A stretch of 64,000 nt of DNA from Ceratodon purpureus (lineage: Eukaryota; Streptophyta; Bryopsida; Pseudoditrichales; Ditrichaceae): contig CM026422.1 of the NCBI GenBank assembly GCA_014871385.1, positions 20,636,177-20,700,176 of the forward strand, written 5' to 3'. This document shows positions 1,245 to 59,698 of the stretch, piece after piece (positions within the stretch are counted from its first letter, which is position 1; every line of letters begins with the position of its first letter). The translations under genes and the position numbers were made by a program. The notes under the pieces are model-generated. The model ran no database searches and had not been told where the DNA came from. It was given only the letters and a program-made list of their open reading frames with translations.

Positions 1245-2942
1245 CTATCCTACAAAGGAGGGGAGACACTCCTTTTTGTACCCCCGAGTGTGCCCGCACC
1301 CCGTAGTCTTCTCCATCTTCCGATGATCAATCAGCCGAGCCAGCCCAAAATCTCCCAAGTGCGCATTCAAGTCCCCATCCAGCAGCACATTGCTGGACTT
1401 GATGTCCCGATGCAACACGCATTGCTCGCATTCCTCGTGCAAGTATGCGAGTGCAGCGGCCACCCCACTCAAAACAGAGTGCCTCAAGGTCAGAGGAAGT
1501 GCCTCCGCATCCTTCAAGTTTGTCATCGCTTTCCCATTACCCTTCTCGAGGCGTCGCGAGAAATGAAAGAGCCAGTTGTCGAGGCTACCGTTGCACATGT
1601 AGTCATAGACAAGAAACAGCTCCTCTTCCTCGTGACACCATCCCCGTAGCTGCACCAGATTTCTTTGACGAATCTGGCTGAGGCTGGTTGCTTCTGCTTG
1701 AAAGCTCTCCTCGCCGTGCTCGTGTCTCATCCGTTTGACGGCCACCACAGCTCCTGAAGGAAGCGTGCCCTTGTACACAGCTCCAAAGCCACCGCTTCCG
1801 AGCAGCTCTCTTCTACTGAAGTTGTTGGTGGCCTTGCTGAGCTCCTTGTAGGTGAACATGCGGGGCACAAGGTTCTGGTCCACAAGATTAAACTTATCTT
1901 GTTTCTTGGACGATGTTCTCCTCCGACACCTACTAATTAAGAAGCCCAGTAACAGCAATGCTGCAATAGCCCCAGCAGAGACTCCAGCAATGACTCCAAC
2001 TTTCCTTGATCCTTGGGAGGAATCAGAAGTAGCATTTGTGATCACGACGCCTGGGAAAGGAGCGGGAGCTATCTCTGGCATGCCAGTGCTTGTGAACCTC
2101 CATGACTGAATCTCGTGAACCTCACTGAATAGCCCGGTACTCGAACTGAACCCAACATACATGTAGTCGTCCAAGAGGTCTTGCAAGGGAACAGATGCAT
2201 TCAGCATTGGTTTTTGTGGCTTAGCGACGTTTTTGTACAATGAACCGTTGGCGAAGAACACATTAAGGTTTCGCGAGGCACTATCAAAATCTATCCAAGC
2301 AGTGAAGTCGCCACCGTTGCATAGATACGAGCAGTTCATTACCTTGCCCCCACACAGGTTGTAGGACACTGTGGAATTCATGCTGTTGACATTAATGCCG
2401 ATGTGACTGTCACTGGGATCGTTCCACCAATAATTTGCGAAGGTGTCAAACTCTACAGCAAAGACTCGATTGGAAGGTTTGCCGTTGAGCGGCTCTTTGA
2501 GGAGGCATAACGAAGACCCGGCGTCTTGTCCCAACAAGGAATCGTTCTTGGCAAATGTGAAAGCCAGCCCGTCTCCATGTACCACGCCGAAATCTGGATC
2601 AACGTAAAAGTTTAGGCCGGAGATTTTGAAAGTGAAGGATGTGTTGAAAGATGCTACCTCCCCGGATGCAGAGTCTTTCATCCTCACTTTGTCTTCGAAC
2701 AAAAGCCTCCCACAACTCGAGCTCTGCAGCGCAGCTGACCTTGCATTCATCAGAAATGAAGAGTCGTCTGCGTTATATTGCACATCCTCTACCATCAGAA
2801 AACGCTCTGGCGTGCTGAAGAAGGCGTAGCTAAAGTTGGTGTTTTGAGCTTCAACATGGACATTACTACTACCACTACCTAAGAGACACACCGTTACAAG
2901 AATTACAAGCAGACAAGTCACAAGGTGATCACAGGACCTCAT
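1245..2942 (-). CDS. L-type lectin receptor-like kinase lacking the kinase C-lobe
   Basis: This is a single open frame of 565 residues. Residues 1-26 form a signal peptide. Residues about 33-285 form a legume-lectin domain with intact ligand features: GDG at 123-125, and the metal site VEFDTFAN (163-170) followed by D-x-HIGIN. A proline-containing stalk leads to a transmembrane helix (about 315-338) and a basic stop-transfer. The kinase starts near 375, with a glycine loop GSGGFG, the ATP lysine in AVK (403), a glutamate in QAEA (417), HRDIKSSN (511-518) and DFG (531-533). Homology stops just after the point where GTLGYMAPE should follow. There the frame reads GHTRGYKKECL and ends, so subdomains VIII-XI are absent. 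Family members normally run to about 650-700 residues. The cause is either a truncating rearrangement near 1285 or a missing exon beyond the left window edge. If expressed it would be an ATP-site-bearing but catalytically doubtful receptor at the plasma membrane. Family identity is certain; functionality is not. Confidence 0.9.
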   Translation of the reverse strand: MRSCDHLVTCLLVILVTVCLLGSGSSNVHVEAQNTNFSYAFFSTPERFLMVEDVQYNADDSSFLMNARSAALQSSSCGRLLFEDKVRMKDSASGEVASFNTSFTFKISGLNFYVDPDFGVVHGDGLAFTFAKNDSLLGQDAGSSLCLLKEPLNGKPSNRVFAVEFDTFANYWWNDPSDSHIGINVNSMNSTVSYNLCGGKVMNCSYLCNGGDFTAWIDFDSASRNLNVFFANGSLYKNVAKPQKPMLNASVPLQDLLDDYMYVGFSSSTGLFSEVHEIQSWRFTSTGMPEIAPAPFPGVVITNATSDSSQGSRKVGVIAGVSAGAIAALLLLGFLISRCRRRTSSKKQDKFNLVDQNLVPRMFTYKELSKATNNFSRRELLGSGGFGAVYKGTLPSGAVVAVKRMRHEHGEESFQAEATSLSQIRQRNLVQLRGWCHEEEELFLVYDYMCNGSLDNWLFHFSRRLEKGNGKAMTNLKDAEALPLTLRHSVLSGVAAALAYLHEECEQCVLHRDIKSSNVLLDGDLNAHLGDFGLARLIDHRKMEKTTGCGHTRGYKKECLPSFVG

Positions 2943-4196
2943 CGTCCTTGGCTAGTCTTGACGGTGAGGAACACCGAATCGCAGTTCTACAACTCATTCA
3001 AAGCTCCTGAAATCTACCAAGCTGAATCTCTAACGCTACCAAACTACGCTTGTTTGGTGATATCGCAATGGCACTGGAAATGGCAACAAGCAACATACTG
3101 CAGTGCTCTCAAAGGGCTGATGGCGAGTCGCGACCGAAGCGACCAGGTTATAAGGGGCCCAGCTAATGGTTTCGGTTTATTTTGATGCCGCACATGCTAC
3201 CGCACTTCCAACAGGGCACCAGAATTAGGTTCTTCGTTGGTGTCATGCTGCCATCATGTATCCGAAAATAGCAACAAGAAAAATCAAAGAAATTATTCCT
3301 CCGGAGCGGGGACGCGGATCGAACAGAGTAGTTGTGAGTCTTGTGACCCAACTTATTCTTTTATTTTTTATTTTGGATTCAAGAGAACCGAAAGATTCAA
3401 TTGCAAGGGACAATTCAAATACAGCGGGACCGACTACGGCCCAGCCAGGAAGAGCACCTACCCACCCTAGACAAAAGTAATCAGGCTGGGGCCGTGTGAA
3501 CCCAAGTCACATGGTTCTTTCTATTCCGGCGACAGATCAACTAAAAATGACCCCAATTTTGAGTCGGTATTTGGGAGGTAATATCAATTGGCTGGAGGAG
3601 CTGGAGAGAGGGGTAAGCATTGCAATGTCAAGCCAACTTGGCCAGCTGAACTTGGCTGGTTAGTCCAGTGTGGCCCTTGCAAGAATTCTGCGAATATTGA
3701 TACAAGTGCTAGGAAGAGCTTTACTCCGTACTCCAGGCAGTGGCAGGTAAATTTGCCTCAAGTTGACCTAACGTTAATGCGGCCCATTTAACTTCCTGGA
3801 GCTTTTGGAGAAATTTCAAAGCACGATCAACAAGGCTCCTGCTGACGCAAGTGTGTCATGCCGCAAGGGTGAACAGGAAAACAATAAAGTAATTTTGGAG
3901 ATCTCAATTTTTGTCCTGTGCGACTGGAAACACTGTTTCTGCGCTTACTACTGCCCGTAGTTCCAAGACCAAAAAACAATGTCGTTGAACTCCGCAGGGC
4001 TTGAAATACTGTTCATGCGTCTGCACGTAGTTTTGAGTTTCCTGCAATTGCTTCACTTTCACGTTGGCTCATCCTACGTGAATGGAAGGTGGTGGATTGC
4101 AACTAGTGTGATCTCGAAGGCATGACAATTCATACGATACCGACAACCCAGACTGAATTATTTGGTTGATACTCAGAACAATATGATATATGTTTT
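2943..4196. other. 5' flank of the lectin kinase, no gene seen
   Basis: The leader and promoter of the minus-strand lectin kinase must lie at the left of this stretch. Several short open frames (for example 3256-3480 and 3588-3791, plus) match no family I recognise and lack splice or codon support. I see no clear TATA element. Confidence 0.5.
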
Positions 4197-42282: not shown

Positions 42283-42863
42283 ATGTCACGCTCACTTTGT
42301 AACACTGAATCATTCCGTGACGATCCATACACTTCGAAATGTCCACTAAGTTACCCCATCCAACTCCAAGACGCCGCAGCAGCGCCACCACCGGGAGTTG
42401 GAACCGGCCCCACGACAAGGGATCGCCGGGCGATGATTAACTTACATGGGATGGTACCACTACGTTGGCTACTGGGCAGTGGAATGGCCTGCCGCGTGAG
42501 AACGTGCAACCAAACTGGGGGGTCACCGGGCACCGGGCACCGGGCACGTCCGGCAGGCAGCGGGTGTGAAAGCGGAGCTGCGATCGCGACCCGAGGGAGG
42601 GCGGGTGTGAAACGATCTAGGGCATTTGGGGGAGTGGGAGTGGGAGTGGGGGGCATAAAGAAGGGCGCCAGGGTTCCTGTTTCCTCTGCACCCGCACTCT
42701 GTTCCTCATTCCACCCGCTCTCTTACTCTCTGCATCTCGGGGCTGCGGCAGCTGCAGCTCGCTCGTCCTCCCTTCCCCTTCTTGCCATTGTGCGAGAGGA
42801 AGTGAGAGAGAGTGAGGAAGAGCAGTTTGCTGTTCGCCGCTCGCACCCGAGGCATCTTATACC
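42283..42863 (+). promoter_or_regulatory. Promoter and 5' leader of the SAHH gene
   Basis: Base composition switches abruptly to GC-rich at about 42360. A GCACCGG tandem lies at 42526-42548. A TATA-like GCATAAAG at about 42653 is followed by a C/T-rich leader (42670-42740) and GAGAGAG stretches (42805-42815) before the ATG at 42864. The TATA call is tentative. Confidence 0.45.
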
Positions 42864-44683
<1,820 letters not shown>

Positions 44684-46685: not shown

Positions 46686-49560
46686 AACCTCTTAATGTAA
46701 TTGTTCTTACTACTCGTTTACTGATATTTTCTATGAATTTTAAAATAGATCATGTAGTTGTGGTATCCAAGATTGTTTTCAAGGCGTCATTAATGTTAAA
46801 GGATGGATGTAGCATAGTAATTAGCATTTGTATCAATGGTTTCGAATGTTTGTCTTAATATTGTTTAATGATCTATTCAAGGTTTTATGTACAACTTTTA
46901 TTGAGAGATTAAGTGTAGATGTTGTAGTTCTAATATGATGACAAATAAAGGGTTCTCTTTCTACTCAAATTATTTGGTATTAAGGATTAAAATTATTTGG
47001 TTGTTCTTAGATGTGATTAATTAGAAAGTTCATTTTGATATGTCATGCCTTTTATGCCAAGCCACTAAAAGGCACCAAAAATCATCATTTAAGTAAGTTT
47101 AGACTTAAAAATAGATGCTAGACATTTAGATGGATATATATCTCATATACCTTTTGTCATAGTCTAATTTGTCCAGAATTCTTTCCAATTTCAAAAATGA
47201 TTCATCAATTCAAGTAACCTTCTTCCAATCTTCATCTGTTCAATTTTTATACTTTCTAGCAAATTCTAGTTTGTCTGCTTTGTGCTTCTAATTGAGATAA
47301 GAGTTTTATATTGGAACACGGCTTCTATAATCCAAGGTTTTCAAAGCTTTTCTTGCAATACAAGTGACTCATTCTCCGCTATATAAACTTTTGAGGCCTA
47401 CCCGGTGACTTCGGAGACCTTATAGTTCCTTGTTTTTTAAAACTTTTTAAAGCACTATAAACAATGGAAGATAACATCTCTGACTCTCTTGCTATCTGCG
47501 CACCTATCATTATACCTTTATTCATTTCAACCACTTCTCTTTTCTCAGCATCAGTCAACGTTCTAGTCTTCATTTTTTTCAACAAATTATGCCACTCAAT
47601 CTACCTATAGCACTATATAGACTTGTTTCAACAAAAAAATACAGCTCACACTAAACCAAGTCACAAATTCAGATACGATTATCTCAAAAGTTACCCTTGC
47701 AACTTACAATGCAATCACAACACAATATGACATATAGGTCTTCTTTAAAAACAATGGTCCAAAACATTGACATATTGCAACAAGGCCCAATGCAAGTTGG
47801 TGGATGAATAACGTGTTGACGCATATTCGATAGGGCAATGAAGAACTATAACTTTACATGGGTTTTACATAATTATCCACATTCAAGCTACCTTTCACAA
47901 CCTTATTCCTTGTCCTACAAATAGGTGAAAATTCCATGAAAATTGCGCACAAATTGAATATGTAGTGGTCACTTGAAGTTTACTATCTATGATCTAGAAT
48001 ACTTGGATTTAAGTAAAATCATATATCATTTCTCCAGAGTCCTGTAATCTAGTCTATTTGGAGTTAAGTAAAATCATGTATCATTTCTTCCGAGTAATGT
48101 AGGATAATACCACCAAATTTCATTGCATTAGGGGAGCATAATTTTCTACAATATTATCCGTGTCACACGTTAAGGTTGCATTACATTAATTTCATTAAAT
48201 TCATGGCAAAGCTTTGATTTATATCACATTTTAATATGTTATGTCTCCTACAAACTTACTCAAAATTAAGTAATTGGCTTGAAAGAGAGTTAAAGATGTA
48301 ATGTCTAACCAACTTCTAGGAATTTCCTTTACATCTCCTCCAAGCAATTTGAAAGCAACCTTGATAGGTTGAATCTTTGCTCATGCTTCCATTATGACTT
48401 CTTATATATATCCTTTGCACAAATAAAAGTCTTATTTACTAAAGACTCATTGGATGATGCATTATATGTCACGTAAACCACATCAAGAAATTCTAAAAAA
48501 CATTAAATTAAATGAAAGGCTTCTTGTATTAAATAATTGTTTCAGAAAAAAAACCCAATGTTTTTTCTATAGAAATCGAAATCTACGTAAACATCAAATG
48601 TAGAAGATGTTGTTGTGTTGATCTTCTATTTATTGTGTCGATCTTCTTTAGTTGTGCTTTGATTGTCTTTCTTTATATTGCTTACATTGAATTTTATAAT
48701 TTTGTATGTATTGACTTGTATAAACTATTAGTCTTGTAGAACATACAAGTTGATTTAATTTGAATCTAGTTTGTTGTGGATTGTGTATGCTCTTACCATA
48801 AGTAACATGTAGCTTTAATCATAAATAATTATTAAACAAAAAACATACTATTTTGGATATTACACTTTAAGGTTGTTGATTCAAAGAAAATTTGAAAAAT
48901 GAGAATGCCAAAATAATTAGATATAACAAAAATATCGACTGACAATACTAAAATAAAAAATTTAACAATGAAAATAATCAACATACTCCATACAAGCTTG
49001 TTGTACGATCCAAAAGTAGCTATAGTACCTAGTTTGTTGAAAGCCATGGTCTTGTAATAAATCTTACATGTACAAATACTAACATTTACACAAGAGTCAC
49101 ATGTACAAATAATAACATTTAATCTGACATTGTATAAGAGCATGAAGTCGCCAAAATTTATATCTTCTCTCATGTTGACGGAGGCCTATCATGGAGCAAA
49201 AGATTGTATCAAACTAGCTTGTTTTGAGCAAATGCTTGTGTCTACGAGTGAACTCTTTCAAATAGCATGGATGAAGGGGCTTGATTTAACTCTAGAGTTG
49301 ATTGACAAAGAGACTTGAGCAACAAGGTCAAAATGAAGAGAATGAAAGAAAATTGACAAGGGCACGTAAATGAAGAGGGACATCACGTCACCAAAAGGTG
49401 ACATGGAGTAGATTGACTAGTAGGTCAACTTGCAGAGGTTCAAGACTGACGATTCAACTATAGATGTAAAAGATTGACTTGCTATGGTTGAATGTCGGAG
49501 GCCATTATAGGTAGATGTCAAATATAGCCATTATAGGCTGAAACAGGCAAATCAAGGCTC
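46686..49560. other. AT-rich intergenic apart from a transposase remnant
   Basis: Apart from the Tc1-like remnant at 47379-47585, nothing is recognisable. The direct duplicate AGTAAAATCATATATCATTT / AGTAAAATCATGTATCATTT around 48013-48090 is a minor repeat. Confidence 0.45.
47379..47585 (-). pseudogene. Tc1/mariner-like transposase remnant (N-terminal helix-turn-helix)
   Basis: The 68-residue frame reads RTLTDAEKREVVEMNKG, an ARESEMLSSIVYSALKSFKK helix-turn-helix pair and then SPKSPGRPQKF. The GRP(R/K) linker between the two DNA-binding modules is typical of Tc1-type transposases. The frame stops where the second module should start, and a stretch resembling IARKALK follows in another frame. 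No catalytic DDE domain is visible. Its relation to the MITE copies with TA target sites (28538, 32181) is plausible but unproven. Confidence 0.6.
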
Positions 49561-50381
49561 TTACACAAGGGATGAGAGGGGTGTTCCTTCGCTGGGAGGT
49601 TTCTTAGGAGCAGGCCTTCGTCGAGCTCTAGCCCATGTAGCATTCAAGCTTCTTGTTTCATTCAAGATCTTCTCCATCTCCTCAAGAATGGTTGTGATGT
49701 AGTAACTTTCGCCGTTACTTTCATTCTTGGCAAAGTTTAGTGGGCCTCTGAACGTGGTGAACCACCTGGTTACTTCTCGACATTTGTTCAGATCCAACGG
49801 GTGGCTCTTGAGCTTCGAGAGTTCCACCCATCTACTCACCCACTCTCCGTTGTCCAGAAGTTGCTTCACTTCTTCCGGCCGAAGCTCGTAGAAGAGAGGC
49901 CACACTCTTACATCCCTTCCCCTGTCGTCAGCAGCCTTGAACACAATCAGCTTTGTCAAGCACCAGCGGCTCTCTAAAAACTCCCTCGTCACCACCACCA
50001 CGCCCAAAACAAATCTGTCTAGTTCTTTCAGTATGACTTTTGCAACCTTCTTGGCTGGTCCGATTGAATCCGAGTCGAATAAGACTTTGACACGGTACAG
50101 TCAACTGGACCATCGCTTCCTCACCAAATTTTGGTTTAGTCGTGACACGAAGTTCTTCACTTTCTCTATGTTTTGATGCGATAAAAATATGTAGACTGGA
50201 CGCGAGACCCACCAGAGCCACAACATGCCAAAAACAACAAAGACTGATGCAATTTAGCCTACAATAAGGCCGATAATCAACCCAGATTCTTTGTCGGCGA
50301 TGTTCCTGGGAGATCAACGTCGACAAGGATGCAAGGGGTTTGTGATGGTGGAGGTGAAGGTTTGCGCGTGCTGGGAGGAGG
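49561..50381 (-). pseudogene. 3' half of a lectin-TM-TIR receptor gene: linker, transmembrane helix, TIR domain
   Basis: Read on the minus strand from 50381, in frame with the lectin exon at 58784-58676: a proline-rich linker (PPSTRKPSPPPSQTP), then a one-base frameshift near 50270-50310. A hydrophobic helix follows (LIIGLIVG, stop TAA at 50254-50256, IASVFVVFGMLWLWWV), then a TIR domain from about 50199 to 49640. The TIR shows VYIFLSHQNIEKVKNFVSRL, an in-frame TGA at 50101-50103, VKVLFDSDSIGP, GVVVVTREFLESRWCLTKL and VWPLFYELRPEEVKQLL. These match TIR boxes (DVFLS, F.D, IVV.S..Y..S.WCL.EL, V.P.FY.V.P..V). The usual catalytic Glu of WCL-x-E is Lys here. A basic tail ends at 49561. Two stops and a frameshift disable it. 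TIR identity is strong, and the join to the lectin half is supported by frame continuity. Confidence 0.87.
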
Positions 50382-50722
50382 TATCAAATTTATAAGCAGC
50401 AGATCGTATGTAACTACGAGCAGATGATAGGAAATTGATATTGGTGTGCAATTTGTACAACACGTTAGTATTCAAGAATGATCACTACACAATGTATTCA
50501 AACTAAATAAGGTGAGAATCTGGTTGTTCTTTTGCACTATACAACTTGATAGGCTGTATACACACAAACACTACTCACCGCTATCACTACTGTACACAAA
50601 ACTACAACTATGCAAGATAGATCACCGAGTCATACGTAAGAGGTATATGCTCGTGTCAAGACCCTAGACGAACAAAATTCATTCTATCCTAATCATTACA
50701 TGAATGAAACATTTATTCAACA
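50382..50722 (-). repeat. Copia 3' LTR (341 bp)
   Basis: This LTR matches the right LTR along its length once the nested 747-bp insertion is discounted. Its plus-strand right end is TTTATTCAACA, followed by CTCCCACTC, the complement of the polypurine tract. Confidence 0.9.
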
Positions 50723-50885
50723 CTCCCACTCGAGCATGGAATGATTCAAATTAAACGTAAGGCTAATCATAGTTACGTATCAATCATCCGACTCGTTTAG
50801 TTTGAATTAACGTGGTAAAGGACATGGAAAGGAGAAGTACTCAAGTGACCAAAGAAGTACTCAAGTAGCCAGAGAGGAGAGATCC

Positions 50886-52500
50886 TCAAGACCTAGAAGA
50901 GTGCAGAACTTCGAAAGGGGTTCTCGAGGAAGAGCTAGTAAAGATGTCTGCAAGTTGGTTCTTGGTATTAACGTAGTGGATGTCCATTTGCCGCCAGTTG
51001 AAATTTTCTCGTATGAAATAGTACTTGCATTCAATATATTTAGTCTTCTTGTAATATCTTGGATTTTTGACCGACTGTATGGCGCCTTGATTATCAAAGA
51101 ATAAAATTGTAGGGTTCAGTTGAGCAATATCAAGGCTGCGAATTAGATTGCAGAGCCACAAGATGTCTTTGATAGCCTCAGCAATAGCCATGAAGTCAGC
51201 TTCGACGGTAGACTCAGCGGTACAGTCTTAACGCTTGCTGGTCCAGTCAATAACTCCATGAGACAGAATCATAAGGTAACTTGTGCGTGATTTCTTGTCA
51301 TCTTGGTCATTCGAGAAATAAGCGTCACAAAAGCCGTCTAAGATCAAGTTCTCCATAGAACCGTGGTAGAAAATTCCAAAAGTAGCCGTCCCTTTGAAAT
51401 AGCGCAAGATTTGTTTTGCAGCAATCCAGTGTTTATATCTTGGGCGATTAGTGTACGTAGCGACGCGACTCACATCATAACATATGTCAAAATGAGTAAG
51501 AACCATAGTGTACATGATCAGTGATCCAATTAGGGCTTTGAACGGAATCTCTGGGCTAAGTAGCTCATCATTTGGGTCATTTCAAATCGGGGTATGGGGA
51601 TCTACTGGGGTAGAGATAGAGTTAGCTTCGTCTAGATTAAATCGCTTGACAGTGTCAAGAATATATTTTTGCTGATGGACAAGGATAGATCCAGTAAGGC
51701 AATCCTGCTCTATTTGAAACCCTACGTAGTACTCAGCAACACTTTGAACCACTTTGAAAATGGCTTCAAGACGGGCAATGATAGCATTGAGCTCCTTAAA
51801 GGTGGTAGAACAAGCTAAGCCATCATCAATAAAGATTCCAACAATGGTGTCGATTTCTCCAGATGAGTTGCGGCGATAATAAACACACGGGTCATAGTCG
51901 TTGGGAGTAAGATGATGCTTCTTGAGAAATTCATCAAACTTCATGTTTCAGTAGCGCCCGGATTGTTTCAGTCCATATAGGCTTTTGAGAAGACGACAGG
52001 CGAAGTGTCATTGAGAATAGTCTTTGTATTCCCCTGGTTGTCTTATAAAAATAGTTTCGTTTAGGTCGTCATTTAGATTGGCAATGCTAATATTGAATTG
52101 CATGAGCTTCATTCGACAAGCGGCTGCGATTGCAAAAATAGTTCGAATAGAGGCGTGCTTGATAAGAGGGCTGTAGGTTTCTTTATAGTCGGTGCCTGCT
52201 ACTTGACTATAGCCTTTTGCCATGAGGTGAGCTTTATACTTATCTATTTGACTAGAGGCTTTATATTTCAGTTTAAACACCCAGTGCTTGTTTGAGATGA
52301 TCTTCCGTCCGGGAGGGGGAAGCTCGAGGATCCAAGTCTTGTTGTTGATCAGAGACTTGTATTCTTTGTCCATAGCCTCAATCCAAAAAGAGGCTTCAGG
52401 GGTTTTAAGTGCGGCCTTATATGTGCTTGGTTCACTGTACGAGCTCGCAAAGTCGACCAGGGCCGCATAAGAGCGACGTGTGCAGACATGTTCCTCATCT
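50886..52500 (-). pseudogene. Copia reverse transcriptase and RNase H region
   Basis: The reverse transcriptase half reads NKTWILELPPPGRKIISNKH and then FKLKYKASSQIDKYKA (about 52373-52008). A frame break follows, then NDYDPCVYYRR and the catalytic FIDDGL box (about 51944-51582), in the position of the usual YVDD. RNase H follows with DFICYDVSRVATYTNRP-like residues, CDAYFSNDQDDKKSRTSY (51515-51228), and DNQGAIQSVKNP, then NQLADIFT (51191-50886). Frameshifts and stops separate the blocks, so no functional enzyme is encoded. Confidence 0.88.
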
Positions 52501-53055
52501 GATCTTGAGCATAAAGTTTTGTAAGAGATCTGAGTTTGACTAGAGTGGAAGAAGATCCTTTGTTGTCAGATGGGGAGTGATGTGAGCACATTGGGCGAGA
52601 AGAGGAATTAGGTGTAGACGCTATAGAAACAGCCAGCAGATGGAGAGTCGAAGTTGTGCTCACTGGAATAATGGTGTCTCCCACTTGGACTGAAGTGTCT
52701 CCCACTTGAACTGAAGTGTCTCGCTCGTGAACAGAGGTGTCTTCTACTTGAACTAAGGTATCTCCCGCTTGGACAGAAGAGTCTCCCATTGAGACTGAGG
52801 TGTCGTTGGGGGTGAAGGGGTTGTCAATAGGATCAGAGAGGGAGTGAGACGTCGTTGGAATCTTGGGATCAGGGACACTGTGCGGGTTGTCAAGGGAGCC
52901 AAAGTGTAGTCTTCAGAATTAGGGAAAATAGTATGTGGCAGATCAAGGGTGTGAGGAAGTTCTCCTCAAAATGGTTTGGAAGAGTAGTGGAGAGATTTGT
53001 CGAAAACAATGTCAGATCGTTTGATGATTTTAGCAGTACCAGGTCGCCAAAAACG

Positions 53056-54077
53056 CTATGCTTTGGTGCAGGTGCTATAACCGACAAAGACCACGCGTTC
53101 TCCATGCGGTTCAAATTTGGTCCGAAATGGTTTATCAAGAAAGATGTAGGCGACTGTTCCAAAAACTTGGTAATGATGATTTGTAGGTTTAGCTTTGTGC
53201 CAAATTTTGTAAGGAGTCATAACACCAACTTGTGTGTTGATTGTACGATTGAGGAGGTAAACGGCAGTGTTGACAGCTTCGGCCCAGAGCTTCAACGGGA
53301 CCTGTGTAGTATGAAGCATCCTACAGGCCGATTCATTAATGGTTCGATTGTCTCGCTCGATGTAACTGTTTTGTTGAGGAATATAGACAGTACTTAGCTC
53401 CCGTGTAATGCCTTCCTGGTGAAGGAAATTGTTGAATTCGGTACCTTGGTCTATGTGTAGAAATTTTACACGGTTGTTGGTGAAACGTTCTATATGTCAA
53501 ATGGCTTGAATCATGTAGGAGATGGTTTCAGATTTTTTCTTAAGAAAATAAACAAAACAGAAAGATGTACAGCCGTCCTTGATGAGAAGGTAGAAAATAG
53601 CGCCGCCGAGGGATGGTTGTGTGATCTTCCTGCAGAGGTCCGCTTGATGGATGAAGGTGCTCGCCGGGAGTTGTCGATTGGTCTTTGTCAGGGTTGACAG
53701 TACATGATGCTTTGTATTGTTTTTCGAATACACAGCCAGAGCAGACGTGATGGAGTGTGGCCGAAGAGGCGAGAGAGACATTTTTGAGGCTGTTGTTAGA
53801 AATCATCTTCCTAAGTGTAGGAATGTTGACATATCCCATACAGATGTGCTACAAGGAGAGATCACTGATGGTTTGAGAGTTTGTTGAGGTGGCCATAGCT
53901 TGCGGAGTTTGAAGGGTAGTCGTTGTTGGCCAAATAGGTTGGAAGAAGAGTTGATATAAGGTGCCAATCCTGGTTCCTTCCATGATCTTTGGACCCTCGC
54001 CAAAATGCCGATAAAAGGCAGAAGTATTGCCTGTGGTGACAAAAGAGATCCCGGCTGTTGAAGCGAAGCCAATAGAG
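53056..54077 (-). pseudogene. Copia pre-integrase and integrase region
   Basis: Blocks read TRIGTLYQLF, MGYVNIPTLRKMISN, and a zinc-type CSGCVFEKQYKASC (pre-integrase). Then, in shifted frames, come FIHQADLCRKITQPSLGGAI, FYLLIKDGCTSFCFVYFLKK, DQGTEFNNFL and RMLHTTQVPLKLWAEAVNTA, ending in PYKIWHKAKPTNHHYQVFG and FVGYST. These are the D, D and E regions of a copia integrase. Several frame changes make it non-functional. Confidence 0.88.
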
Positions 54078-56326
54078 CATTAGGAGAAATGTGGGGTCTC
54101 CAAAAGGCCTTGTAAGACAACCCGAAGGTAGGTGAACTTGCTGTCTACGCATGCCTCTCTAAGTAATCTCATTGGTGGATATCTTGCCCGCTGACAACGT
54201 CAGGAGCTACAATGTTGACAGCGACATTACTGCTCGTACTCAATACTAGGATTTGGGGCTCTATGCAACGTCCCTGGTGTAGCATTATACACTAGAAGTT
54301 GATGGTGGTCGGCCCTGTTAGAACTTAGCTCTAGTCATGTCCCTGACGTTGCTCCCACTAAAGCCATGCCAGGGGTGTAACATTAGCAACGTTGTGCGTT
54401 GCGTGTGAATGGACGTTCCCAATGAAAAGTGCCATGTCATCGTACTTTGAAAAATCGACACGTGTACGGTGTCAGGGACTCCAGTTTTTACCTTGCTATA
54501 ACAAATTTTAATTTGCGTCACCACGCATTTGTTTTCCATTTCTTTGTTTTCATTCTATTTTTGAAAATCACCCGTTTTTTATTTTTAAATTAAGGACACA
54601 TTTGTAGCTTTTGTTTTCACCATGTCTTCTGACCTTGCGTATTCCCCTTTCATTCTGAACTTTCCTACCGACCATTAATTTTTGTCGATGTTTTTGGTTA
54701 ACAGAAGATCTAAGTGAAGCAGCTGCTAATGTGAAGCAATGCTATCAAACATAAAAATGATTGCCCTCAGCAACCCGCAGTAGTACACCCTTAAAGAACT
54801 ACAAACACTCTCGTACTGAATAGCAGAGATATTGGGACTGAAACAAATGGGACTGGAAATAGGAGAAGCGACTGAAGAATGGGTGGAATGGGTGCAAAGG
54901 ATGAAGATTCTCTTCAATACTGCAGTACAACGGGGTTTCAAGGTCAGAGTCTACTGGTAAAAAAGTGGAGCAGTTGGATGGAGAACTGCTTTCTGAGCAT
55001 AAGAAAACACTTCAGCAATCTGCACATCACCAAGACACCGGTAAGCATTTCGTCAGCACAGAAGCACCACCTGATAATATTATCTGCCGCCTACCACTTA
55101 AGAAGAGAAGTCTGAGATGTAAACAGACCATGCCAAGTGAAAAGAAAATCCCACCTGAAGGTCCAGCTTGCATCTGGCAACAATGATGGGCACCTCGATC
55201 TACATCACAAACACAATCAAACATGAAAATATTCTAAGAACATGTTCCAAAACAATGCATCCCCCCAATTGTCCTAGCACAACACCTTCATGTCGTTTCA
55301 AGTAGCTCCCAAACAAGAGTGGAGACACACACACTTCTAAGTGCCGGAGCTTGGGCAACCAGTAGCTCGAGAGCCGCTCAAACAGGAATACGTCAAAACT
55401 ACAGCATCCGCTCTAGCTCAACTCCATCTCCGTCTTAATCTTATCTTCTTGCCTGACCACCAAAACACCACAACACAAACAACACCAAAACCATTCAAAC
55501 TGGGCCCTCCTCAATTACCTTCCCACCACACAACAAAAAAACAACCCTACTCGTCAAATTCCCAAATCAACCGAGACAACATCCAATTCCCACAAATTTG
55601 TCAAAAAAAACCAAAACCACTCCAAGAAAGAACCAAACCACGCATTCGACAGACCTCGATTTGCCCTAATAGTGTGACGGCTCATATCAGAGTGATACAT
55701 CGGCGAGCTGGTGAGGGAGTAGATTAAATGTTTAGTGTTTCAAGTTTTCAGTTGACAATATGACTTTTCTATGATAAATATGAGGTTTATCCTTTCATCA
55801 CTACCCATCTGTTACCCCAGATGTAAATAATTTTGAACGACCATTTTGGACCTCATGTGAGAATAACAGTGAAAAAGACATGTAATTTAAAAAAATTGTG
55901 ATCCGCAGGGAAACCATGGGTGATTGTTTGTGGTATTGGATTTACTTGATGACAACATATCCAATCTAGAGATTCGCGATGCACTACCTGCGAGGAGAAC
56001 GCCACTGGGAACGTCAAATGTAGTTTAGACGTGGCATCAAACAGAAAGTGAGAAGCTTAACAGCATTCACAGAAAAATGTGGTTTGATTTCAAGGACGTA
56101 GCTTATTTGCCGTAGCTTCTACCCCATATTCCTAGTAGTGACTGTCCAATGGGGTGACAGCAGTGGCACACTCCGTCGTTGGCAGCGATTGGCTAGATTC
56201 ACGAAATTCACTATTGGCAACACGTGGCACCATTGGTGCCAGCAAATAAAGTGCACGGGCTGGGCCAAATTTTTAGGCACGTGGGAAACCCAAAGCTCTT
56301 TTGGAGACCCCAGATCTCCCCTAATG
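54078..56326. mobile_element. Pack-type inverted-repeat transposon carrying MIRO gene fragments
   Basis: Ends CATTAGGAGAAATGTGGGGT and CATTAGGGGAGATCTGGGGT (the second read on the minus strand) extend as inverted repeats through CTCCAAAAG, about 35 bp with six or seven mismatches. The 2249-bp body splits the copia protease-integrase junction: protease text stops at YVPDLRRNL and resumes as STAGISFVTTG on the other side. No transposase is recognisable. A clean target duplication is not visible. The superfamily is undetermined (Mutator-like or other). The interior carries fragments of a MIRO gene at 54890-55415. Confidence 0.8.
54890..55415 (-). pseudogene. Captured exon fragments of a MIRO (mitochondrial Rho GTPase) gene
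   Basis: Three minus-strand segments lie in native order with splice-like borders. At 55415-55335 the segment reads ARADAVVLTYSC, then after a frameshift ERLSSYWLPKLRHLE with a GTGTGT donor. At 55199-55155, after a TGATGTAG acceptor, it reads IEVPIIVARCKLDLQ with a GTGGGA donor; CKLDL is the MIRO-type G4 base-recognition motif. At about 55019-54890, after GATGTGCAG, it reads IAEVFSYAQKAVLHPTAPLF, a stop, then LKPRCTAVLKRIFILC. These match the first GTPase domain and the start of the EF-hand region of plant MIRO. Introns between them indicate capture from genomic DNA. Intact MIRO sits in the outer mitochondrial membrane. Confidence 0.85.
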
Positions 56327-56339
56327 GAATAGGTTTCTT

Positions 56340-56580
56340 CTTAAATCAGGAACGTATAATACTTTCTATAGAATGCCATGTTTCTTCTTTCCATCGATGG
56401 TGAGGAGAATGTGAATATCTCCAGTTCCTAATACCCAGAGGCTATGGTTATCCGCTATAGTAATTGACCATTCTCTAGACTAAATCAGGGTGAAATTTGA
56501 GAACCTGTCACGATGGTCAGCCATGTGTTGACTTGCTTCGCTATCGGCAAACCAAACGTTGGAGACTGGATTGACGCTTA
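56340..56580 (-). pseudogene. Copia aspartic protease region
   Basis: The frame reads NVWFADSEASQHMADHRDRF, a stop, then WSITIADNHSLWVLGTGDIH, and a later KVLYVPDLRRN. The active-site triad expected as DSGAS is DSEAS, so the Gly is lost, and stops interrupt the frame. The right-hand continuation is separated by the nested element at 54078-56326. Confidence 0.85.
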
Positions 56581-57572
56581 AGGCTTTTAGGAGTGCCGGC
56601 TAGACGTGAGGGAAGCATAGGAATTACTATTACTAGAGTGACTATCAGAATTAGCTGAGCTATAGTCGTGGGATGTAATCATTGAGGTAGCCGCGTTAGC
56701 ATCACTGTGTTTACGCTTGTGTTGACGAGAAGAGTGCTGATACTTGGAGTCTGGACAAGGAGGTTCAGGGCATTCGTCACGCCAGTGGCGGGGTTGCCAC
56801 AATTCCAGCAAATAGAATTGTCCTTCAAGTGACAAAGGTACTCTTTATTACAAATTTTCTTCTTGTCATGGCGATGAAAAGAATTGGAGTAGCGATTTGC
56901 TCGAGTGAAGAAAGCCTTGTCAGACGGAGTCTCTGTTGCACCGTTTTGCAAGGTGAGGATATTCTCCATTTAAAGTAGTCAGGTTTTGAGGTTCTTAATT
57001 ATCCGCTCAGAATCGGCAAGGTTTGTCCATGCAACGATGATGCTGTTGTACCCGAGAGGAAGACTTGAGAAAATCTTAGAAATTATTATGTCATCGTCAA
57101 CTGGTTTGTCTAGATCCTTAAGCAAATTTCCAAGAGCTAGCACCTTATTGACGTGAGTGTAAATGTCATCACCGCGTGACATTTTGTAGTTGAAGAAGCT
57201 AGCCTAAATGGAGTAGATATTTTCTTGAGACTTATGTTGGTAGAAAGAACAGAGTGTGGTCCACATGCAATGAGCAGTGGTATAGTTAACTAAATTTTTG
57301 AGGATAAGGAGAGTGATGGAAGAACATATCATGCGTCTGGTAAGTGAGTTCTTCTTTTACCATGCGTCTCATATGTTTGCGAAAGCCGTCGGAGCAGATT
57401 GCGGTGAAGTGCCTGTAACGACGTCGAGAATCTCCTCATCTTCGAAGCAGATTTCCATATGGAATTTCCAGAAGGTGAACTTAGAACCATCGAAAACCTT
57501 GAGAGAATCATCGCGACGCTCTATGGTTGATTGAGAAGTGTGAGAAAAATAGTTTCGCTCTCTCGAGCGCAA
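56581..57572 (-). pseudogene. Copia gag region with split zinc knuckle
   Basis: The N-terminal block reads LKVFDGSKFTFWKFHMEICF and then VVTGTSP (57572-57369). The middle block reads ALGNLLKDLDKPVDDDIIIS and then FSSLPLGYN (57182-56979). The CCHC knuckle is broken by a frameshift between ICWNCG and HWRDEC (about 56815). All three are hallmarks of copia gag (UBN2-type) proteins. Confidence 0.88.
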
Positions 57573-57589
57573 AAGATTGGCCCATAACC

Positions 57590-58675
57590 TATCAAATTTA
57601 TAAGCATCAGATCATATGTAACTATGAGCATATGATAGGAAACTGTTATAGGTGTGCACAACACTTTATTATTCAAGAATGATCACTACACAATGTATTC
57701 AAGGGGAGGAGCACAATAAAGTGGACCAAAAAAGTGCTTAACTATTTGTCAATTTCAGCCCATGTGCAAAAATTGCACAAAAGTTATGGAAAGATGTGAT
57801 TTAATTTTTATTTTTTTTGCTAATATAGATTCTCAACTTGGTTTTTTACAACTTGGAAAAGTTTTGTGCAAAGTAGACACTTTAAAGTTATTGTATGAGG
57901 GCTTTAAATCCAAGCAAAGTGAATGCAGTCATTTGAAAAAATGGCTAGAAAAGAATCAAAATTATCTAAAAATCACTTTTGATGAAGTGGTACCTTCTAT
58001 ATGTTTAAGAGGTATTCTAATATAGTCAATTATAAGCTTATTAATTGTTTTAGGGTTCCAAAAGTACCGCAAGGATGTTTTTTAAGAGGGGTCACTTCTG
58101 CGGTACCTTTAGTTAGTTTTTTTTCACCGGACATTGTTTTTCAAATTGAAAAAAACATCATCTAGATTCTAAAGACAATAGAGGGCACCAAATGAAGAAA
58201 TTAAGACTTTGGAAAAGTTCATTTTCATGATTTAGAACTAGTGGTCAAATTAAGTTTCAATTGAAGATGTTCTTTTAACGTAGATGCGTGGGAGATACCC
58301 CATGACCTTCTAGAAAGTGACTAAAATGCTCAAAAACTACACCAAAATGCTCAAAATCAGCTTTGAGCTTTTAAAAACAGCACACTTCATATTCATTTCC
58401 TAGTGATCACATGTTGTACTTTGTGGTCCACTTTATTGTGCTCTCCCCCTCAAACTAAAGAAGGTGAGAATCCGGTTGTTCCGTTGCACTACACAACCTG
58501 ATAGGCTGTACACACACAAACACTACTCACCACTATCACTCACTGTACACAAAACTACAACTATGCAAGATAAATCACCGAGTCACACGTAAGAGGTATA
58601 TGCTCGTGTCAAGACCCTAGACGAACACAATTCATTCTATCCTAATCATTACATGAACGAAACATTTATCCAACA
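57590..58675 (-). repeat. Copia 5' LTR, interrupted by a 747-bp insertion
   Basis: The LTR segments 57590-57702 and 58450-58675 together align with the 341-bp LTR at 50382-50722. The insertion point falls at the sequence GTATTCAAACTAA of the intact LTR. Confidence 0.9.
57703..58449. mobile_element. Non-autonomous inverted-repeat element nested in the LTR (747 bp)
   Basis: Ends GGGGAGGAGCACAATAAAGT and, on the opposite strand, GGGGGAGAGCACAATAAAGT match over 26 bp (to GGACCA) with two mismatches. The 4-bp target duplication TCAA (57699-57702 and 58450-58453) is confirmed by comparison with the uninterrupted LTR. The interior frame 57762-58025 (87 residues) is unrecognised. Superfamily unknown. 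Confidence 0.85.
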
Positions 58676-59698
58676 AGAGGTGCTGGACTTGGACCCGACG
58701 GTGGAGCATCCTTGGCGAGAGATATCGGAGGTGCTTCACCCTCGTTGCTGAAGCTCCAGGCGAAAATGCTGTGCCGGTCCGCACCTGCACAGACGAGACG
58801 ACAAATCAGGCCAGGAATCTACCAAAGCAAGTGAACCGCACCTGATCAGGCAAGGAATCGATCAAAGCCAGTTGCAGAGACAAGACCAACCAGGCTAGGA
58901 ATGGAATCGAAAATAGCTAGTGGGTGTGTGTTGCACACCTGTTGTACCAATAGCGGCAGAGAATCCAACAAACGTGGGCTCGCTCAAGAGCGACAGGTCG
59001 ACGTTCGGCCACGAAACGGAAGGCACAGCAGGCTTGACAACCCAAGCTTGATACACAGCGAGGTAGATATCCATCGTGGACTGATTTTGAGAGTAGTCGA
59101 TCCACACCTGGTGGTAAACAGTTTCACTTTCCGTAACCAGAGGGATGACCGGCTTAAAACTAACCGTGGAGTTCATGCTGGCGAAGTCCAGTCCAATATG
59201 ATTGTCGTTTTCGTCGTTAAACTCCGGGTTCTGATACGTATCGAATTCCACTCCGAATGTTTGCTCATCGGAGGCAACATCCTTGGCAACTGTGTCGGTG
59301 GTGGTGGTGATGAGCCCCAGGAAGTCATTGGGTGCACCGATGGTGGAGTTGTTGGGTACCATGAGGAACGTGAACCCGGAGCCTTTGCCGACATACGCAG
59401 GGTGCTGGTAGATCTGGAAGATGAAGGTGGTGCTGAAGGACATCACTGCCGAGCTGCCCAATTCCCTCATGGAGACCGCCTGCGGATAGAGTAGCCGTCC
59501 GACGGATCTGTCGGGAGGCCATACCAAAGTGTAACAACTTTCGTTGACGAGGTTGTACTCCCAATTGCTTTCGGTGACGATGAAGAGCTCGGACTGGGAT
59601 TTGAAGCCGTTGAATGCGAACTTGAATCCGAGGCTGCTCTGTGAGAAGGTCATCAGCACCGCCACCAGCAAACCGAAACTCCTCCTCGCCACAGCCAT
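58676..59698 (-). pseudogene. 5' half of the lectin-TM-TIR receptor gene: signal peptide and legume-lectin domain
   Basis: Exon 1 (59698-58939) encodes a signal peptide (MAVARRSFGLLVAVLMTFSQ) and a legume-lectin fold. The metal-binding segment FGVEFDTYQNPEFNDENDNH followed by IGLD keeps the acidic and Asn ligands. The monosaccharide-contact Asp usually found in G-D-G is Ser here (GKGSGFTFLM). The intron is 58938-58785 (GT-AG). A second in-frame donor nine bases upstream is possible. Exon 2 (58784-58676) gives ADRHSIFAWSFSNEG, the last lectin strand, and a proline-rich linker GPSPAP where the copia element begins. This half has no stop or frameshift of its own. On its own it would encode a secreted lectin truncated at the linker. 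Confidence 0.92.

Follow-up and report, generated by a model that had tools for sequence, protein, structure and literature searches.

The stretch analyzed here, referred to as the window, comprises 64,000 nucleotides of the moss Ceratodon purpureus (assembly GCA_014871385.1, contig CM026422.1, positions 20,636,177 to 20,700,176). On its minus strand lies a gene for a protein composed of an L-type lectin domain, a transmembrane (TM) helix and a TIR domain (lectin-TM-TIR), which has been split by a copia retrotransposon (Table 1). In Pfam searches, the open reading frame (ORF) at 59779-58895 (-) matched the family Lectin_legB with an E value of 1.6e-40, and the ORF at 50100-49561 (-) matched the TIR family PF01582 with an E value of 4.8e-7. 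When the whole TM-TIR half was searched with its breaks read as X, the TIR match had an E value of 1.6e-9. Hydropathy analysis of the window gene detected the TM helix; the signal region stayed under the cut-off, and the signal peptide was assigned by eye.

According to the first-pass annotation of this stretch, exon 2 of a legume-lectin gene enters a proline-rich linker with the residues GPSPAP exactly where a copia long terminal repeat (LTR) starts, and we found just this arrangement, with the linker at 58676 and the LTR at 58675. The annotation further stated that the same strand and frame resume beyond the element. This holds for the strand and for the linker, but not for the TM-TIR part: the linker frame closes at a stop and the TM-TIR part uses another frame, which contains the in-frame stops TAA (50257-50255) and TGA (50103-50101). 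Removal of the element and of one copy of its flanking 5-mer gave the open frame through the linker that had been predicted, the joined flanks yielding 34 open codons. The copia insertion, the frame change and the two stops thus leave the window copy a dead relic. Its TIR domain also has lysine in place of the catalytic glutamate and thus lacks the residue that characterizes NADase-type TIR domains.

Table 1. Parts of the split lectin-TM-TIR gene and of the inserted copia element, in window coordinates
Feature	Position	Strand	Basis or remark
Lectin-TM-TIR gene, whole	59698-49561	-	Split by 8.3-kb copia element
Exon 1: signal peptide (assigned by eye) plus the larger part of the L-type lectin domain	58939..59698	-	Lectin_legB 139.6 bits; predicted gene model
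GT-AG intron, 154 bp, phase 1	58785..58938	-	Predicted gene model
Exon 2 before the element: last part of lectin domain, first part of Pro-rich linker (reaching ...GPSPAP at 58676)	58676..58784	-	
Pro-rich linker, continuation beyond the element	50286..50376	-	
TM helix, in a frame differing from that of the linker, contains TAA	50209..50280	-	Hydropathy
TIR domain and C-terminal tail, contains TGA, Lys at the catalytic Glu position	49561..50196	-	PF01582
Copia LTR element splitting the gene	50382..58675	-	LTR pair, RVT_2, Retrotran_gag_2
5' LTR, interrupted by about 0.75 kb (57703-58449)	57590..58675	-	LTR comparison
3' LTR	50382..50722	-	LTR comparison
Target site duplication copy CCTCT	58676..58680	-	
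Target site duplication copy CCTCC	50377..50381	-	

The nature of the insert was as originally proposed: it has the LTR pair, the copia-type gag followed by RVT_2 and the short target duplication that define a copia LTR retrotransposon. RVT_2 and copia-type gag were found in three of the seven ORFs searched, six of which stem from the element, and a fourth contained a retroviral SH3-like domain. The two LTRs differ at 22 of 338 aligned sites (13 transitions and 9 transversions; Kimura two-parameter distance 0.068), and the flanking 5-mers are identical at four of five bases. The sequence between 57703 and 58449, nested within the 5' LTR, is foreign to it.

We searched the C. purpureus genome (362 Mb in 151 contigs) for relatives of the broken gene, scoring all 86 candidates for the lectin family, of which 84 were kept as matches, and the best 150 of 285 candidates for the TIR family. 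Besides the window gene, four intact lectin-TM-TIR loci were found, encoding proteins of 517, 595, 553 and 535 residues. Two of these are single ORFs, whose lectins lie at C4:6098963 (529 codons, 517 residues) and C4:12949702 (602 codons, 595 residues). The former, P0003, is identical with KC19_4G069000, already public as a hypothetical or TIR domain-containing protein, and matches Lectin_legB with an E value of 6.7e-45 and TIR with 1.1e-10; the corresponding values for the latter, L039, are 1.2e-33 and 3.1e-8. The third locus, L025 on C7, yields 553 residues from two exons joined across a predicted 95-bp phase-1 intron (Lectin_legB 1.1e-44, TIR 9.8e-15) and was the one place with lectin and TIR on one strand among 20 weaker TIR places retrieved. 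The fourth, L040/L049 at C2:11926366-11924133, gives 535 residues when two predicted GT-AG introns are removed (Lectin_legB 1.2e-50, TIR 2e-8). With 139.6 bits for the window gene and 117-173 bits for the four paralogues, all lectins scored above the L-type lectin cut-off of 26.3 bits, and the TIR domains of seven members, including those from other sources described below, reached 29.9-55.2 bits with PF01582 (cut-off 21.3 bits). The one-protein architecture that the first-pass annotation had reconstructed from a broken copy is therefore present in four intact paralogues of the C. purpureus genome, including the publicly annotated gene model KC19_4G069000.

The same loci emerged from two further searches. 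With the TM-TIR part of P0003 as query (best 150 of 284 candidates scored), the top five places were C4:6099773 (490 bits), C7:2786606 (195 bits), C4:12948937 (144 bits), C2:11924151 (115 bits) and the window gene (86.5 bits), and the next place reached 75 bits. When lectins were paired with TIR domains by proximity, 5 of the 84 lectin matches were followed on their own strand by a TIR at most 10 kb away, based on at least 266 TIR places from 300 rows, and these five pairs were the loci that topped the P0003 search. Within 2 kb, four of the 84 lectins had such a partner, compared with about 0.06 expected by chance. For two other lectins, a TIR no more than 10 kb away lay on the opposite side or strand. 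Taken alone, the window copy, in which the frame changes and 8.3 kb are inserted, would permit the reading that a lectin gene and a neighboring TIR gene were mistaken for one. For the family we rejected this reading, since the single-ORF paralogues carry both domains without interruption; P0003 is moreover annotated as one protein, and a metagenome protein has its parts in one frame. Two separate genes are thus a very improbable explanation. Judged from these sequences, the lectin-TM-TIR architecture almost certainly exists in the form of real single proteins.

To this come members from other sources. In a search of a protein collection with L025, in which the 7999 best word-sharing candidates were scored, 17 proteins were found at E<=0.1; the broken window TIR half as query gave nothing at E<=0.001 among 1502 protein candidates. 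P0003 and L025 share 47% identity over 96% of the query. P0016, a metagenome protein of 306 residues, comprises the end of a lectin domain (Lectin_legB 5e-10, 52 residues), a TM helix and a TIR domain in one frame. P0018 (291 residues), retrieved alongside P0003 with the P0003 TM-TIR part as query, consists of a proline-rich linker, a TM helix and a TIR domain. P0002, likewise from another source, is 94% identical to the C7 protein, and its tail represents a frame-shifted translation of the exon-2 region, running into the TM helix and the start of the TIR domain, which shows that the lectin and TM-TIR exons adjoin in that source too. The five loci in C. purpureus all come from one assembly, as would be expected if an error of assembly or annotation had created them; however, P0016, P0018 and P0002 repeat the layout or parts of it independently of that assembly, and we regard an artefact as extremely improbable.

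In a tree of 38 TIR domains, 36 of them from this genome and with the next-best non-lectin matches included, the seven member TIRs formed one clade with 100/100 support, the window TIR sitting on a long branch (1.9). L042, L043 and L047 were left out of this tree as second copies of L010, L011 and L009. The TM-TIR halves of the six unbroken members show identities down to 33%. Comparison of the C7 and C4a genes gave 53% identity for the lectin half and 54% for the TM-TIR half, so that both halves diverge alike, as expected for joint inheritance. The TIR domains are one clade, yet none of the 200 bootstrap trees united the lectins of the lectin-TIR proteins in one group, and 4-5 label changes were needed to account for their distribution. 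Together with the differing intron positions of the members, this would fit a TM-TIR module that was joined repeatedly to different lectins by shuffling, as opposed to one old fusion. The approximately unbiased test, on the other hand, leaves a single clade of these lectins unrejected (p 0.079), and four of the lectins have very long branches. The lectin trees also covered 7 of the 84 lectin places as loci, plus family members and P proteins: the first had 27 rows (5 family members, 7 lectin loci and 15 P proteins, with L031 omitted as a copy and P0001 and P0002 outside the family), and in the second P0001 and P0002 were placed inside the family and P0008, P0009, P0015 and P0017 were dropped. 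With the parallel divergence of the two halves also arguing for a single fusion, we give repeated shuffling a real but minority chance. Apart from the window lectin itself, the lectin place scoring best against it (37%) is L035 (C10:2258323-2259054), a 330-residue lectin ORF with neither kinase nor TIR, which has a short linker followed by a hydrophobic stretch at its end and is perhaps glycosylphosphatidylinositol-anchored.

For L025, hydropathy analysis and Pfam gave the order signal region, lectin, a single later TM region and TIR, and basic residues follow the TM helix in most members. These features suggest that the lectin domain is extracellular and the TIR domain intracellular. By sequence, the order of parts would fit the layout of Toll-like receptors, given the predicted topology; hydropathy, applied to L025 and the window gene, showed a signal region and one TM region in the former and the TM helix in the latter, whose signal region fell below the cut-off. 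Lectin receptor kinases (LecRKs) share with the moss proteins the Lectin_legB ectodomain, the linker and the single TM helix, and the L025 lectin is 45-52% identical to its kinase-bearing matches. They differ in that the TIR domain of the moss proteins occupies the place of the kinase: Pfam found no kinase match in any of the four intact proteins, while a LecRK from the window, used as control, matched PF07714, so that the moss proteins do not belong to the LecRKs. Animal Toll-like receptors combine an ectodomain, one TM helix and a cytosolic TIR domain, a plan predicted for the moss family as well. The moss family, in contrast, has a lectin and not a leucine-rich repeat (LRR) or immunoglobulin ectodomain, and among solved structures its TIR domain is nearest to flax L6 by sequence. 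Since Pfam detected lectin and TIR domains only and no LRR in the intact proteins, these are not members of the animal Toll-like receptor family either. In the window, an L-type LecRK gene is represented by a 568-residue ORF at 1245-2951 (-), whose kinase looks cut short (Pkinase positions 2-159 of 263); relatives with 780-residue ORFs are present at C2:24581964 and C47:17974.

Taken together, the data probably describe a small family of surface receptors in moss that cross the membrane once, with a predicted signal peptide, an L-type lectin ectodomain, a linker, one TM helix and a cytosolic TIR domain. Several points weigh against this reading, in addition to the scatter of the lectins in the bootstrap trees. 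The intron-bearing models of L025 and L040/L049 are predictions from genomic sequence, and the gene model KC19_4G069000 may be nothing more than an automatic prediction. In P0018, no lectin part was seen. Signal peptides were judged by eye or by hydropathy, and the topology is a predicted one. Finally, the window gene, L039 and L040 deviate in the "GDG" loop of the sugar site, which reads GKG or GHG or is absent, so that glycan binding is not assured for some members.

In plant TIR domains, according to the available parts of a review of TIR evolution, a glutamate in helix alphaC is required for NAD+ cleavage and a neighboring cysteine for the synthesis of 2',3'-cyclic nucleotide monophosphates (2',3'-cNMP) (PMC9153377). 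All six unbroken member TIRs contain the motif WPMxEL, in which the glutamate is kept and the cysteine is replaced by proline; the P0003 glutamate aligns with that of flax L6, the nearest solved TIR structure by sequence. The six thus have the residue of predicted NADase-type TIR domains and lack that of 2',3'-cNMP synthetases. Other moss TIR domains were also scanned, the motif being located in 24 of 31 and not in the remaining 7. Of those 24, 23 have WPMxEL and not WCxxEL, among them L010, L011, L016 and L026, so that this form marks a large class of moss TIR domains, which lacks the cysteine linked to 2',3'-cNMP synthesis. EDS1 is stated in the same review to be absent from non-seed plants (PMC9153377), and a search with PF18117 (EDS1) gave no match in the C. 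purpureus genome and likewise none in 14 control genomes.

These observations lead to a candidate mechanism. The lectin side would bind a cell-wall or microbial glycan, and binding would cluster the receptors in the plasma membrane. After clustering, the TIR domains might associate and produce small signal molecules by cleaving NAD+, in the way known for plant TIR domains upon oligomerization of nucleotide-binding LRR receptors (NLRs). Because the cysteine for 2',3'-cNMP synthesis is proline in all six, the predicted output would be of the NADase kind only, and it would bypass EDS1, which non-seed plants are reported to lack. We consider such a glycan-gated NADase plausible, its chances being only just short of even. 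The fused protein could also be real and work in another way, with other TIR proteins using the TIR domain as a scaffold or adaptor, or with the lectin acting as a co-receptor whose binding to protein or cell wall has no sugar specificity. Several members lack the usual sugar-site residues, and the accessible sections of the review point out that not all TIR domains are NADases and that TIR-TIR assembly alone can signal (PMC9153377). However, the catalytic glutamate has been kept in all six unbroken TIR domains despite the low identity of the TM-TIR halves, which argues against this alternative, and we assign the scaffold or co-receptor role an appreciable probability that stays clearly below one half. 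Still more tentatively than the glycan-gated mechanism, the family may be viewed as a moss counterpart of Toll-like receptors, in which lectins would turn glycan binding outside the cell directly into NAD+ cleavage by TIR domains inside, without an NLR, a kinase or EDS1.

Further genes were noticed in the window and elsewhere in the genome. We take the window segment 7896-10376 (-) to be a subtilisin-like protease gene and 42816-44683 (+) to be an S-adenosylhomocysteine hydrolase gene, both presumed by eye from their ORFs. The ORF at 47379-47600 (-) resembles by eye a piece of a Tc1/mariner-type transposase and had no Pfam match at E<=0.01. At L022 (C10:6140063), the TIR domain is preceded by about 450 residues of other sequence in a 648-residue ORF.

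Plant TIR-only and TIR-NB-ARC proteins are intracellular and have neither lectin nor TM helix; the alphaC glutamate of their TIR domain is what they share with the moss family. Literature using the terms "TIR-lectin" or "lectin-TIR" reportedly cites Arabidopsis PP2-A5. This TIR-Nictaba protein is a known plant chain with lectin and TIR (PMC5485960, PMC12355970; both available in part), but as far as the accessible text goes its TIR domain comes first and its lectin is of the Nictaba/PP2 and not of the L type (PMC12355970). A soybean chimera, GNA-TIR-NB-ARC-LRR, also unites lectin and TIR in one chain, but has no L-type lectin in the portion of the source at hand (PMC6272470). The available parts of the review of TIR evolution present animal Toll-like receptors as the archetype of sensor-TIR proteins and do not use the word lectin (PMC9153377). 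The main text of a survey of lectin motifs across 38 plant genomes, including those of three bryophytes, contains no word beginning with TIR (PMC6362431), and no L-type lectin-TM-TIR protein is mentioned in the accessible sections of a fern study (PMC12512272) or of an NLR study that counted receptors in Ceratodon (PMC11218826). The first-pass annotation knew of no L-type lectin-TM-TIR receptor, and in the open-access PubMed Central literature, as far as its texts were available, we found no description of such a protein either. We regard the lectin-TM-TIR architecture as real and, within the literature searched, undescribed for plants.

Plant surface receptors signal mainly via kinases, and the well-studied plant TIR domains act inside the cell. 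A lectin-TM-TIR receptor would unite surface sensing and TIR in one chain, with the layout of a Toll-like receptor and another ectodomain. The target of TIR signaling in plants without EDS1 is left open in the available parts of the review (PMC9153377). C. purpureus can be cultivated and transformed, and its four intact genes would offer a way to approach this question.

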